This document shows positions 47,500-50,387 of a stretch of 64,000 nucleotides of DNA, piece after piece (position 1 is the first letter of the stretch; each line of letters starts with the position of its first letter). The stretch is from an uncultured Massilia sp. (GTDB lineage Bacteria; Pseudomonadota; Gammaproteobacteria; Burkholderiales; Burkholderiaceae_D). The stretch spans positions 62,001 through 126,000 of the forward strand of contig NZ_CAJYEB010000014.1 in assembly GCF_913773735.1 (NCBI RefSeq), given 5' to 3'. Both the position numbers and the translations under genes were made by a program. Below the pieces are notes generated by a model. That model worked only from the letters and a program-made list of their open reading frames with translations. It searched no databases and was not told the DNA's origin.

Positions 47500-47772
47500 T
47501 TATTTGAACTTCTCGTTGCTGACGCGGCTGGCCCGGTAGCCGATCAGGATCAGGCCGACCAGCATCATGGCGAAGACTTCCGGTTCGGGAAGTTCGGACA
47601 TCGAGGAGGGCGGGGGCGCCACCACTTCGGTGCGGTGCAGCGTCGACAGGTCGGCCACGCGGTAGGCGCGCACGCCAGCGGTGGACGTGTCGAGATCGAT
47701 GGCGGCGGCCTGGGCGGCGCCGCCGACTAACAGACTGAGCATTGCGGCAAGTGCATATCGTTTCACGGTCAT
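47500..47772 (-). CDS. Very short PEP-CTERM sorting-domain protein
   Basis: 90-aa exported protein. Signal peptide 1-24 (KRYALAAMLSLLVGGAAQAA), a mature part of only about 35 residues, then a PEP-CTERM signal: LPEPEVFAMMLVGLILIGYR with an Arg cluster and tail. PEP-CTERM proteins are cut and probably anchored by exosortase during exopolysaccharide production. The size is unusual, because most members carry a large ectodomain. The ATG at 47772 gives a standard signal peptide. It is divergent, across a long AT-rich region, from the FtsH-like gene. Confidence 0.82.
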   Translation of the reverse strand: MTVKRYALAAMLSLLVGGAAQAAAIDLDTSTAGVRAYRVADLSTLHRTEVVAPPPSSMSELPEPEVFAMMLVGLILIGYRASRVSNEKFK

Positions 47773-48339
47773 TCCTTCAAAAAAACTGGCGACACCCGAC
47801 GACGATGGATTGCATCGACCCGGCAATTACATATTTGCATTATTAACGTTTGGATAATGAGCTTAAGAAACGAATTACTCATGGAAACGCAATGACGCAT
47901 CCAGGTCGTCATGCAGAATAACAAAGATGCGCCGTGCATTGCGCCCGTTACGTACGGTTACACTCTCGCATCTGTTTATAAAAATTAATATTTTTTTTAA
48001 ATAAAACAAAGATAAGGGATTATGCGGAGTGGCATGAAAAAATAGCCATGAGTGACATCAAATCTTGCGCTCTATTTATCTAGTTTATTAAGTAGGCAAT
48101 GAAATCCGATAATCATCTGATCATATTTGTTGTGCCCCGAATTTTTTTCGGCGCACGGTATACACCTTCCTTTTCTTTGCGGGTATAGTCTCCATATCCC
48201 TATTGCCTTAGGGCATCAAAACAATAGCAGATGCACACGTCTGCCGACCCCGAGCGGTCCCACCGTTCCGCCTTTCCCGTCCGCCGGACTTGCGAAAGGC
48301 CAGCCGTATCACACCCTTCGTCTTTTGCAGAGTACCGAT
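47773..48339. other. 567-bp AT-rich divergent intergenic region
   Basis: It separates the PEP-CTERM gene from the FtsH-like gene. Bases about 47830-48200 are much richer in A and T than the rest of the window, with a core of A/T tracts at 47978-48020. This is the kind of DNA bound by H-NS proteins and probably holds promoters for both genes. A coding frame runs in from 48127 to the FtsH-like start, but nothing in it resembles a protein. Confidence 0.6.
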
Positions 48340-50301
48340 ATGCCCAATTTTGCTCGACTTCAAATTGCCTTCAAGAATGTCTATGTCCGTATCCTGGCCG
48401 CCATCGTGCTGGGCATGCTGGCGGGCTGGGCCATCTACAAGGCCGACGTCCCGCAGGACCCGGCACCGGTGGTGCACTCGCAGAACATCGCCGAGATCAC
48501 GCAGCTGGCGGCCGCCAAGGACCGCCTGGAATACCTGCTGGTCGCCAGGCCGCTGTCGGACTCGCCGCGCTATGTGTATAAATTCAAGGATGCGCCGCAA
48601 CTGCACGTGGTGAAGGTGCCGAGCACCTCGCACCTGTCGCTGGAGCGCGAAGTGCTGCTGAAGAGTGCGATCCCGTACTCGATCGCCAAGGACGATTACC
48701 TGAGCACGCACAAGGCCGTGCTGCAGGACGAGGGCGAGGGCTTCGGCACCGACGTCATCAATTTCCTCAAGCGCCATGCGCTCGACATCACCGTGCTGCT
48801 GGTGATCCTGTACGCGATCAAGTTCGGCATCCCGGGCATGAATGCGGGCGCGCAACTGATTTCGCCGGACAAGCTGAAAGGCAGCCTGGACGACCTGATC
48901 GGCATGGAAGACATCAAGCAGGAAGTGCTGCACCTGGAAGACATGATCCGCAACCGCGAGCTCTACCAGGAGCACAATATCGACAAGCCGTTCAACGTCA
49001 TGCTGACCGGTCCGGCCGGCACCGGCAAGACCAAGCTGGTGGGTTACCTGGCCAAGCGCCTCGACATCCCGCTGATCCAGGCGTCCGGCTCGGCGCTGGA
49101 ATCGGGTTACGTCGGCGGCGGCTCCAAGGCGCTGAACGCCCTGTACCGCAAGGCCAGCGCGAAGGGCCGCTGCATCATCTTCCTGGACGAGGCGCAAAGC
49201 CTGTTCATGCCGCGCGGCCGCAGCGAAAAGAAATGGGAAGACGATACGGCCAACACCCTGCTGGGCCTGCTGGACGGCGTCAAGAGCGACAAGGGGCAGG
49301 GCGTGATCTGGGTCGTCGCCTCGAACTTCGACGATGCCTCGACCGAGATGGACGAAGCGATGCTGCGCCGCTTCTCGGTGAAGATCAACTTCCGCCTGCC
49401 GAACAAGACCGAGCGGCGCGAGCTGTTGCGCAGTTTCCTGGCGCGCAAGAAAGAGGGCCTGGTGGACTGGGACGACCTCGACCTGGACCAGGTCGCCGAG
49501 ATCACCCAGAACCTCAGCCCGGCGCTGCTGGAAACCGTGGTCGAGCGCGCGTCGATGCTGTCGATCCAGGAAAAGGCGATCATCAACACCGACCTGCTGT
49601 TCCGCGCCTATGAACGCGCCACGATCGGCCTGACCGACCGCGCCACCACGGCCGACAAGCAGAAGCAGCGCGAGCGCATCGCCGTGCACGAGCTGGGCCA
49701 CTTCTTCATGCAGATCGATCCGTTCCTGCGCGAAGGCCTGAGCCTGGCGCAGGTGAAGGAAAAGTCGCACCTGCTCAAGATCAGCACCGAGGCGGTGTCG
49801 AAGATCGGCGCGCTGGGCTATGTGCTGCAGTCGGGCGACGACATGTCGCTGCGCACGCTGGAAGAGCTGGAGCGCGACGTGATCGGCCTGTACGGCGGCG
49901 TGGCGGCGGAAGAGCTGTTCTACGGCGCGCGCGGCATCTCGGTGGGCAGCCAGAACGACATCGAGAAGATCACCAAGATGCTGAACCTGATGGTGGGCCG
50001 CCTGTCGATGTACTCGCGCGCCAAGATCGACTACAGCCAGTTGCAGAACGACGCCAGCGGCGAGCACACGCTGCGCCAGGTCGAGGAAAAGTCGGACGAG
50101 CTGTACAGCTACACGCTGGATGCGATCCGCGACTACCGCGAGGTGATCGTGGCGCTCAAGGACACGCTGCTGGACCAGTACGTGTTGTCGAAGGATGCCG
50201 TGTTCGCGCTGCTGGCCGAACACGAGGAAACGCTGCGGGCCGGCCTGGATGCGCCGCGCGCCGTGAACCTCAAGCTGTGCGCCGAGGAGGCCGTGGCTTG
50301 A
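48340..50301 (+). CDS. Diverged FtsH-like membrane AAA+ zinc metalloprotease
   Basis: 653 aa. Topology is that of FtsH: TM1 about 16-33, a periplasmic stretch to about 143, TM2 about 147-165, then an AAA+ module and a peptidase. Walker A is GPAGTGKT (224-231), Walker B IIFLDEAQS, and the pore loop contains GYVGGG. The second-region-of-homology ends EAMLRRFSVK where FtsH has LLRPGRFD. The peptidase has HELGH (450-454; FtsH: HEAGH), LYGGVAAEELFYG and the third zinc ligand in SQNDIEK (Asp540). All catalytic residues are kept, so it is probably active. It stands alone, away from rlmE/folP neighbours typical of housekeeping ftsH. Confidence 0.87.
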   Translation: MPNFARLQIAFKNVYVRILAAIVLGMLAGWAIYKADVPQDPAPVVHSQNIAEITQLAAAKDRLEYLLVARPLSDSPRYVYKFKDAPQLHVVKVPSTSHLSLEREVLLKSAIPYSIAKDDYLSTHKAVLQDEGEGFGTDVINFLKRHALDITVLLVILYAIKFGIPGMNAGAQLISPDKLKGSLDDLIGMEDIKQEVLHLEDMIRNRELYQEHNIDKPFNVMLTGPAGTGKTKLVGYLAKRLDIPLIQASGSALESGYVGGGSKALNALYRKASAKGRCIIFLDEAQSLFMPRGRSEKKWEDDTANTLLGLLDGVKSDKGQGVIWVVASNFDDASTEMDEAMLRRFSVKINFRLPNKTERRELLRSFLARKKEGLVDWDDLDLDQVAEITQNLSPALLETVVERASMLSIQEKAIINTDLLFRAYERATIGLTDRATTADKQKQRERIAVHELGHFFMQIDPFLREGLSLAQVKEKSHLLKISTEAVSKIGALGYVLQSGDDMSLRTLEELERDVIGLYGGVAAEELFYGARGISVGSQNDIEKITKMLNLMVGRLSMYSRAKIDYSQLQNDASGEHTLRQVEEKSDELYSYTLDAIRDYREVIVALKDTLLDQYVLSKDAVFALLAEHEETLRAGLDAPRAVNLKLCAEEAVA

Positions 50302-50357
50302 CGACAGGTTGGTTGATGGTTCTTGAGGCGTGATCTGCGGATAGCTTCAAGTTGATG

Positions 50358-50387
50358 CGGCGGACAGCGATGTCCGCCGTTTTTTTT
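50358..50387 (+). terminator. Intrinsic terminator of the FtsH-like gene
   Basis: CGGCGGACA pairs with TGTCCGCCG around GCGA and is followed directly by eight T. It lies 57 bases after the stop codon and confirms that the gene is transcribed alone. Confidence 0.85.

Follow-up and report, generated by a model that had tools for sequence, protein, structure and literature searches.

A probable second FtsH-like membrane protease of separate lineage in Massilia and its relatives

A stretch of 64,000 nucleotides from an uncultured Massilia sp. (the window) encodes a 653-residue protein, here given the working name FtsHX, which we think likely to be a second membrane-anchored, ATP-dependent zinc protease, FtsH-like in its working but of a separate lineage, specialised, and served by its own conserved control region. 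The clade to which FtsHX belongs stands outside the FtsH sampled. Its sister branches and its conserved control element go beyond what can be read from the motifs of the protein.

Results

A membrane-anchored AAA+ M41 protein encoded beside a canonical ftsH

The reading frame of FtsHX is complete, from the ATG at 48340 to the stop codon ending at 50301 (Table 1). Hydropathy and Pfam agree with the FtsH topology attributed to it in the initial annotation, namely TM-periplasm-TM-AAA-M41: hydropathy windows above 1.6 begin at residues 9-16 and 146-150, and Pfam matches both AAA (1.6e-24) and Peptidase_M41 (4.1e-14). After the second helix comes a linker (KFGIPGMNAGAQLISPDKLKG) that is about 18 residues long and has no glycine block. 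The PF01434 score (53.3 bits, against a curated cut-off of 29.9), together with HELGH and D540, places the protein in M41. Pfam found no match to FtsH_ext in the periplasmic domain; the canonical FtsH of the genome does have one, at 56.6 bits.

Table 1. Features of the FtsHX locus. Counts of loci refer to the best 80 of 162 relatives.
Feature	Coordinates	Strand	Evidence or remark
AT-rich intergenic control region, 513 bp	47827..48339	+	43.1% GC
Promoter-like TATACA-N19-TATAGT	48159..48189	+	conserved upstream block; putative promoter
Dyad TTGCC-TTAG-GGCA, candidate operator or leader hairpin 1	48203..48215	+	conservation across loci
Candidate leader hairpin 2	48227..48244	+	compensatory changes; part of Massilia-type loci only
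CDS, membrane AAA+ M41 metalloprotease, working name FtsHX	48340..50301	+	ORF, Pfam, NCBIfam scores
TM helix 1, aa 14-35	48379..48444	+	hydropathy; helix 14-35 in predicted model
Periplasmic domain, aa 36-146	48445..48777	+	order beta-alpha-beta-beta-beta-alpha; Pfam FtsH_ext unmatched
TM helix 2, aa 147-163	48778..48828	+	hydropathy, model
AAA+ motor domain, aa 181-430	48880..49629	+	Pfam, model
Walker A GPAGTGKT, aa 224-231	49009..49032	+	80/80 loci
Pore loop Y-V-G, aa 257-259, equivalent to F-V-G in FtsH	49108..49116	+	[YF][VI]GGG in 80/80 loci
Walker B IIFLDE, aa 279-284	49174..49191	+	FLDE in 80/80 loci
Adjacent SRH arginines R343 R344, LRRF without the PG of FtsH	49366..49371	+	LRRFSVK in 80/80 loci
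M41 zinc-peptidase domain, aa 431-630	49630..50229	+	PF01434 2.1e-15, domain searched alone
HELGH zinc/catalytic motif, aa 450-454	49687..49701	+	HELGHFF in 80/80 loci
D540, third zinc ligand position	49957..49959	+	aligns with FtsH D
Intrinsic terminator, 10-bp stem + T8	50357..50387	+	stem 50357-50380, T8 50380-50387

FtsHX had been described as lying away from the usual ftsH neighbours, and a search of the genome for a canonical ftsH next to rlmE had been proposed. The genome (5.88 Mb, 52 contigs, 99.84% complete) holds two M41 genes at E 0.01, which score 231 bits (contig C16) and 53 bits (FtsHX). The C16 gene is the canonical ftsH: it sits between rlmE and folP, as in E. coli, and carries LLRPGRFD and HESGH. 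FtsHX, by comparison, reaches 172.9 bits with the FtsH equivalog model TIGR01241 (cut-off 600) and 94.7 bits with the IetA equivalog model NF042959 (cut-off 510), and is 22-26% identical to the six FtsH-type rows of our alignment.

Distribution and sister branches

Genome contigs were scanned for orthologues, and the best 80 of 162 relatives were analysed. These 80 come from Massilia, Duganella, Pseudoduganella, Janthinobacterium and near kin, and the ORF is open in all of them. By hand count, FtsHX is carried by 46/145 sampled genomes of the bacterial family (one copy is split over two contig ends and one is incomplete), including 8/8 of the window's genus and 7/7, 7/7 and 5/5 of three others; two further genomes of the family hold a 42-43% identical relative instead. 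Wider samples are almost devoid of the protein: a sample of the order gave a member in 4/200 genomes, two of them of the window's genus, and a sample of the phylum gave 2/398, both of that genus. With a wider profile, the class sample yielded 3/369: the window's genome, one member of branch C (G952, see below) and an FtsH-type protein with LLRPGRFD (G814). Pairwise dN/dS against six relatives was 0.155-0.295, with the AAA domain lowest in all six comparisons, and the gene is therefore maintained under purifying selection.

The clade has three branches: A, on Massilia-group chromosomes; B, on four Pseudomonas megaplasmids; and C, a few scattered relatives. At E 1e-50, a branch-B query matched 4/72,556 plasmid records, namely the megaplasmids of branch B (pMPPla107, the FeN3W plasmid, pBASL58 and pPL1; 0.9-1.2 Mb). 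Its proteins are 41-46% identical to FtsHX over 70-80% of the query, and the three that were aligned share the SRH (second region of homology) without PG; unlike FtsHX, they are plasmid-borne, carry HEAGH and have an N-terminal part that can hardly be aligned. In pBASL58 the gene is annotated as two ORFs, and this copy was omitted from the alignment; the pPL1 copy is unannotated. Branch C, with HEWGH, comprises G021 and G144 from the window's family, G244 and G255 from the same order, and G952 from the same class. The aligned members of A, B and C have in common W-x-x-A-S-N, a longer loop, and LRRF without PG.

A phage origin of FtsHX was considered and rejected, as there was no member among the phage records or viral contigs scanned. 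A tblastn search against phages returned 59 records, all below 60% identity (24.6-30.6% in the 15 matches listed), and viral contigs, scanned with two peptide patterns only, returned 16 weak loci at 20-29% identity; neither set held a member of the family. A literature search over titles and abstract openings, with few subscription journals, found no description of the FtsHX family, and the one passage that PMC4105467 yielded is unrelated to it.

FtsHX falls outside the FtsH-type proteins

We built IQ-TREE trees from the AAA domain (with six IetA-like outgroup proteins), from M41 and from both joined, together with 16 FtsH-type proteins: the genome's own, that of E. coli, same-family secondary copies, and cyanobacterial, firmicute, alphaproteobacterial, mycoplasma and phage proteins. 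The outgroup proteins score 219.5-256.9 bits against the NF042959 cut-off of 510, and hence are called IetA-like rather than proven IetA. Such a tree had been proposed as a check on the initial annotation, and it puts FtsHX outside all 16 FtsH-type proteins sampled: A+B+C split off at UFBoot 100 in each of the three trees, on branches of 1.14 (AAA), 2.14 (M41) and 2.05 (joint), with all 16 on the opposite side and monophyletic at 94 with the IetA-like outgroup. The order of A, B and C varies by tree, and in the AAA tree the branch-B proteins do not group together. FtsHX is thus neither the sole ftsH of its genome nor placed inside ordinary FtsH, and the idea of a second protease beside the housekeeping one is borne out at the level of sequence, both by the two M41 genes and by the separate clade.

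We then have to weigh whether FtsHX is a fast-evolving paralogue of ordinary FtsH, an old duplicate of the genome's own ftsH that does the same general quality-control work. It does share the domain order and fold of FtsH, its best NCBIfam match is FtsH, and FtsH is also the top match of the AAA domain by itself (109.5 bits). We consider this quite unlikely, however, given the split of A+B+C from all 16 FtsH-type proteins at UFBoot 100 on branches of 1.1-2.1 substitutions per site. Same-family secondary copies of FtsH (L129-L131, L139) group with FtsH and retain GRFD, and the mean column identity of 81% across 18 aligned family members argues against a decaying duplicate.

Alternatively, an IetA-like, non-FtsH AAA motor may have been fused independently to an M41 peptidase, so that the FtsH-like layout arose a second time. 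The best matches to NF042959 in Pseudomonadota are AAA ATPases that resemble FtsHX in the AAA domain and in an RRF without PG, and differ from it in length (329-405 aa) and in the absence of an M41 domain; IetA pairs with a subtilisin-like protease. On the AAA part of FtsHX, the IteA/IetA model (95.8 bits) nearly equals FtsH, and on the whole protein the best PADLOC IetA model scores 109.4 bits. When VCP/Cdc48/Rix7 domains were added to the AAA tree, A+B+C remained at 100 and joined the IetA-like proteins, but at only 47; this support is weak, and long-branch attraction is a likely reason for the grouping (branches >1). FtsH is no longer a split in this tree, because AAA_Cabal leaves the other FtsH-type proteins. 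Compared with VCP/Cdc48/Rix7, one residue before Walker A is missing from FtsH, the IetA-like proteins and A+B+C alike, and this deletion therefore does not decide between an FtsH and an IetA origin. As the TM-periplasm-TM-AAA-M41 order is also the same as in FtsH, we regard a second origin by fusion as rather improbable.

Catalytic residues are complete and the predicted fold resembles FtsH

The full set of ATP and zinc residues claimed from the sequence is present in FtsHX and in 80/80 loci among the best 80 of 162 relatives, where the third-ligand aspartate was located by pattern in 79 and by eye in one (L048). The Walker, pore, arginine, HExGH and aspartate positions are invariant across a 28-row alignment that includes six FtsH-type rows. 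The roles given here to FtsHX residues are those that we take the corresponding residues to have in E. coli FtsH.

FtsHX is set apart by its SRH, which was rightly described as diverged: FtsHX reads DEAMLRRFSVKINFRLP, exact in 79/80 loci (best 80 of 162 relatives), where FtsH has LLRPGRFD. The FtsH pattern R-PG-RFD (or R-AG-RFD) is replaced by LRRFSVK. In the alignment with FtsH, PG is gone from LR(PG)RF, the preceding loop is three residues longer, and two extra residues stand before the sensor strand. An SRH without PG need not mean a dead motor, because the two arginines stay and the same region lacks PG elsewhere, in Rix7 D1 (R-R-R-F) and in the aligned IetA-like AAA proteins (R-R-F). The peptidase motif HELGH is present as stated, but its value as a mark that sets FtsHX apart from FtsH did not hold up, because FtsH-type proteins themselves vary: those aligned have HESGH (the genome's own copy), HEAGH, HEMGH or HEVGH. 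At locus L131, a HEVVH is a pattern match off the zinc site, and the real zinc motif is HEMGH.

An AlphaFold2 monomer model (mean pLDDT 75.5, pTM 0.56) was computed from 28 input sequences. It superimposes on apo-FtsH 3kds (Z 28.2, rmsd 8.0, 412 aligned), AFG3L2 6nyy (Z 27.0, rmsd 4.0, 424 aligned) and YME1 6az0 (Z 26.8, rmsd 7.4, 407 aligned), and its top Foldseek match is the E. coli FtsH model; plant and algal FtsHi motor-complex chains likewise score high as fold matches. The predicted cytosolic AAA + M41 fold thus matches FtsH, an outcome favoured by the six FtsH-type rows in the input alignment. The periplasmic domain was modelled by itself, with family members as the sole input (pLDDT 76.2). 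Its fold matches include the FtsH domains 2muy (Z 6.1, rmsd 3.3, 72 aligned) and 4v0b (Z 6.0, rmsd 2.5, 63 aligned), which rank no higher than unrelated ribosomal chains, presumably protein eL38, at Z 6.2-6.9. Foldseek gave no match for this domain at E <=0.001, and the Thermotoga FtsH periplasmic domain ranked 11th (E 0.05).

A pseudo-protease or motor subunit, which would assemble with canonical FtsH or serve only as an unfoldase like plant FtsHi, could be suspected from the high divergence of FtsHX and from the FtsHi chains among its fold matches, but is very unlikely, because Arabidopsis FtsHi1, 2, 4 and 5 lack HEXXH, according to the relevant passages of PMC9020784, whereas FtsHX retains HELGHFF and the distal D in 80/80 loci (best 80 of 162) and all seven aligned sister-branch proteins retain HExGH and D.

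The neighbourhood points to no partner

The gene is monocistronic, as originally proposed: the ORF upstream is divergent, and the downstream gene, for a KefB-like antiporter (Na_H_Exchanger + TrkA_N), is convergent. The T8 terminator that had been noticed lies, with its stem, between FtsHX and the antiporter gene. A pattern scan for terminators found 2 against 2.4 expected by shuffling and so is by itself no proof; 15/69 relatives passed a strict test for a perfect stem.

Sixty-nine of the best 80 of 162 loci span at least 11 kb, and they fall into 47 of the Massilia type, 20 with trxA-rho-rpmE-GT39 and 2 of neither kind. None of 16 window neighbours tested occurs in rho-type loci, and none of 5 rho-side neighbours occurs in Massilia-type loci. 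Because the neighbour sets are not common to both types, none of these neighbours is an obligate partner, and because neighbours differ between lineages, the neighbourhood points to no partner or substrate.

A link to the exosortase/PEP-CTERM system, prompted by the small divergent neighbour, was rejected. This neighbour is below the cut-off of all four NCBIfam models that it matched, and Pfam assigns it to no family at E 0.01; it is present in 40/47 Massilia-type contexts and 0/20 rho-type ones. Exosortase PF09721 occurs in 81/145 genomes of the family (E 1e-10) and does not track FtsHX: G002, G017, G024, G025 and G031 carry FtsHX without PF09721, and G026 and G033, for example, have an exosortase without FtsHX.

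A conserved control region upstream of FtsHX

The unusually long, AT-rich control region reported in the initial annotation is evident from its composition, as it contains the lowest-GC 400-nt segments of the 64 kb (the window as a whole has 68.7% GC). Within it, an upstream block accompanies FtsHX in both types of neighbourhood: a T-tract (by eye), TATAGT, then TTGC. A sigma-70 scan with a 16-18 nt spacer found no promoter, the 19-nt spacer of the promoter-like element being beyond the limits of the scan.

In 76/81 sequences (the window plus the best 80 of 162 relatives), TTGC begins 16-22 nt past the start of TATAGT. GCA stands at the matching 3' place in 75 of those 76; all four pairs of the arms TGCC/GGCA are formed in 60 (62 when G-T is counted), as against 0 (1 with G-T) at 224 control TTGC elsewhere in these upstream stretches. 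TTGC served as the anchor of this search and so predetermines the 5' half of the dyad; what was found is its 3' half. Because the dyad shows little covariation, it can be read equally well as an operator bound by a protein or as a hairpin.

For hairpin 2, covariation was assessed in 21 Massilia-type sequences chosen for showing it; the hairpin is not clear in others, e.g. L045, L051, L055 and L063. In the chosen set, 98.0% of cells are paired. Four pairs are changed on both sides (mean after shuffling 1.9; at least as many in 4/500 shuffles), and there are 15 double-change cells (mean after shuffling 3.6, 0/500; no slid version exceeds 5), 10 of them at the outermost pair. Further pair types are unexceptional (55/500). 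This covariation is suggestive of RNA structure and not proof of it, because the sequences are related and the structure was drawn from them.

The combination of TATAGT and dyad occurs only once in the genome, no second copy of the control element stands out from short chance matches, Rfam gave no match at E 5 over 47700-48500, and the combination was absent upstream of branches B and C in 8/8 cases checked.

Discussion

FtsHX shares with FtsH (TIGR01241; the C16 copy and that of E. coli) the domain order, Walker A and B, an aromatic-V-G pore loop, two arginines, HExGH with a distal D, and the predicted overall fold. It differs in its SRH without PG, the longer loop before it, the lack of a sequence match to FtsH_ext, its separate clade and its gene neighbourhood. 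Most likely, FtsHX is an active protease of the membrane that works as a hexamer on a restricted range of substrates.

In the mechanism that we propose, FtsHX would be transcribed from its own conserved control region, and six subunits, each anchored in the inner membrane by two helices, would assemble into a ring. The AAA+ motor would grip a substrate through the Y-V-G pore loop, hydrolyse ATP between subunits with R343 and R344 as arginine fingers, and thread the substrate processively into the M41 chamber, where it would be cleaved by zinc held on H450, H454 and D540, with E451. The distinct periplasmic domain and the linker free of glycine blocks probably narrow the choice of membrane proteins, and restricted acceptance of substrates would make FtsHX a specialised protease beside the housekeeping FtsH.

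A precedent is FtsH2 of Pseudomonas aeruginosa clone C, a second FtsH whose linker restricts its activity. According to the sections of PMC10850787 concerned with it, FtsH2 is an accessory AAA+ M41 protein beside a housekeeping FtsH, its linker lacks long glycine blocks, as does that of FtsHX, and it degrades fewer substrates than FtsH1. It differs in being an FtsH xenologue on a mobile genomic island (PMC10850787, same sections), whereas FtsHX is chromosomal and of another lineage. By this analogy, FtsHX probably clears its own particular set of membrane proteins, and the linker may be taken as a lead to narrow substrate choice rather than a test of it. The specialised role is thus suggested by analogy together with divergence, and a role in quality control is likewise presumed. 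Unfolding could also be the chief activity of FtsHX, or it could work within hetero-oligomers that include FtsH.

A bolder reading, which we offer tentatively and think unlikely, is that the clade, alongside FtsH/m-AAA and i-AAA, makes up a third major division of the membrane-anchored AAA+ zinc proteases, of non-FtsH descent, with an IetA-like/classic-AAA motor, its arginine fingers lacking PG, joined to M41. Its inheritance would be vertical in Massilia-group chromosomes and its spread on Pseudomonas megaplasmids horizontal, and its control in the Massilia group would be through a gene-specific leader RNA or operator that is kept in otherwise unrelated gene contexts.

With FtsHX understood as a second, FtsH-like protease of separate lineage, annotation would be corrected, since the plasmid relatives, where annotated, are filed as 'AAA family ATPase'. 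A lineage outside FtsH that looks catalytically complete, and that shares its cell with a normal FtsH, would be a natural experiment on substrate choice.

The FtsHX upstream element

The conserved element upstream of FtsHX (Table) accompanies the gene in both of two unrelated gene neighbourhoods, the Massilia-type and the rho-type. It occurs once in the genome, and Rfam returned no match for it. Its second hairpin covaries and is present in part of the Massilia-type loci. The small divergent protein encoded beside FtsHX is retained in 40 of 47 Massilia-type contexts and scores under the cut-offs of all models matched.

Table. Features neighbouring FtsHX (window coordinates).
Feature	Position	Strand	Remarks
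Small divergent protein	47500-47811	-	weak PEP-CTERM-like C-terminus
TATACA-N19-TATAGT + TTGCC-N4-GGCA dyad + second hairpin	48159-48244		upstream of FtsHX; conserved, the second hairpin in part of the Massilia-type loci

Irregular FtsHX loci

On the Pseudomonas sp. Leaf58 megaplasmid pBASL58 (locus L124, 7485-9517), the branch-B copy is split in the annotation: one ORF, for the ATPase part, overlaps a second that is labelled a hypothetical protein. This copy is therefore broken or misassembled. Two of the megaplasmids (L122 and L124) carry, near the branch-B gene, a plasmid-borne ruvB as well as a gene with a TROVE domain.

Seven genomes were sampled from the genus of G072, and among them G072 alone carries FtsHX. 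Its gene is in two parts (C3:298-861 and C16:637-1995), and because these sit at two contig ends, the split is probably an assembly break. Transfer or contamination is a possible origin of this gene.

Finally, genome G144 shows branch C (locus L121, contig C42) instead of the chromosomal branch A, which the other sampled genomes of its genus carry (6/6), suggesting that branch A was replaced by branch C in G144.
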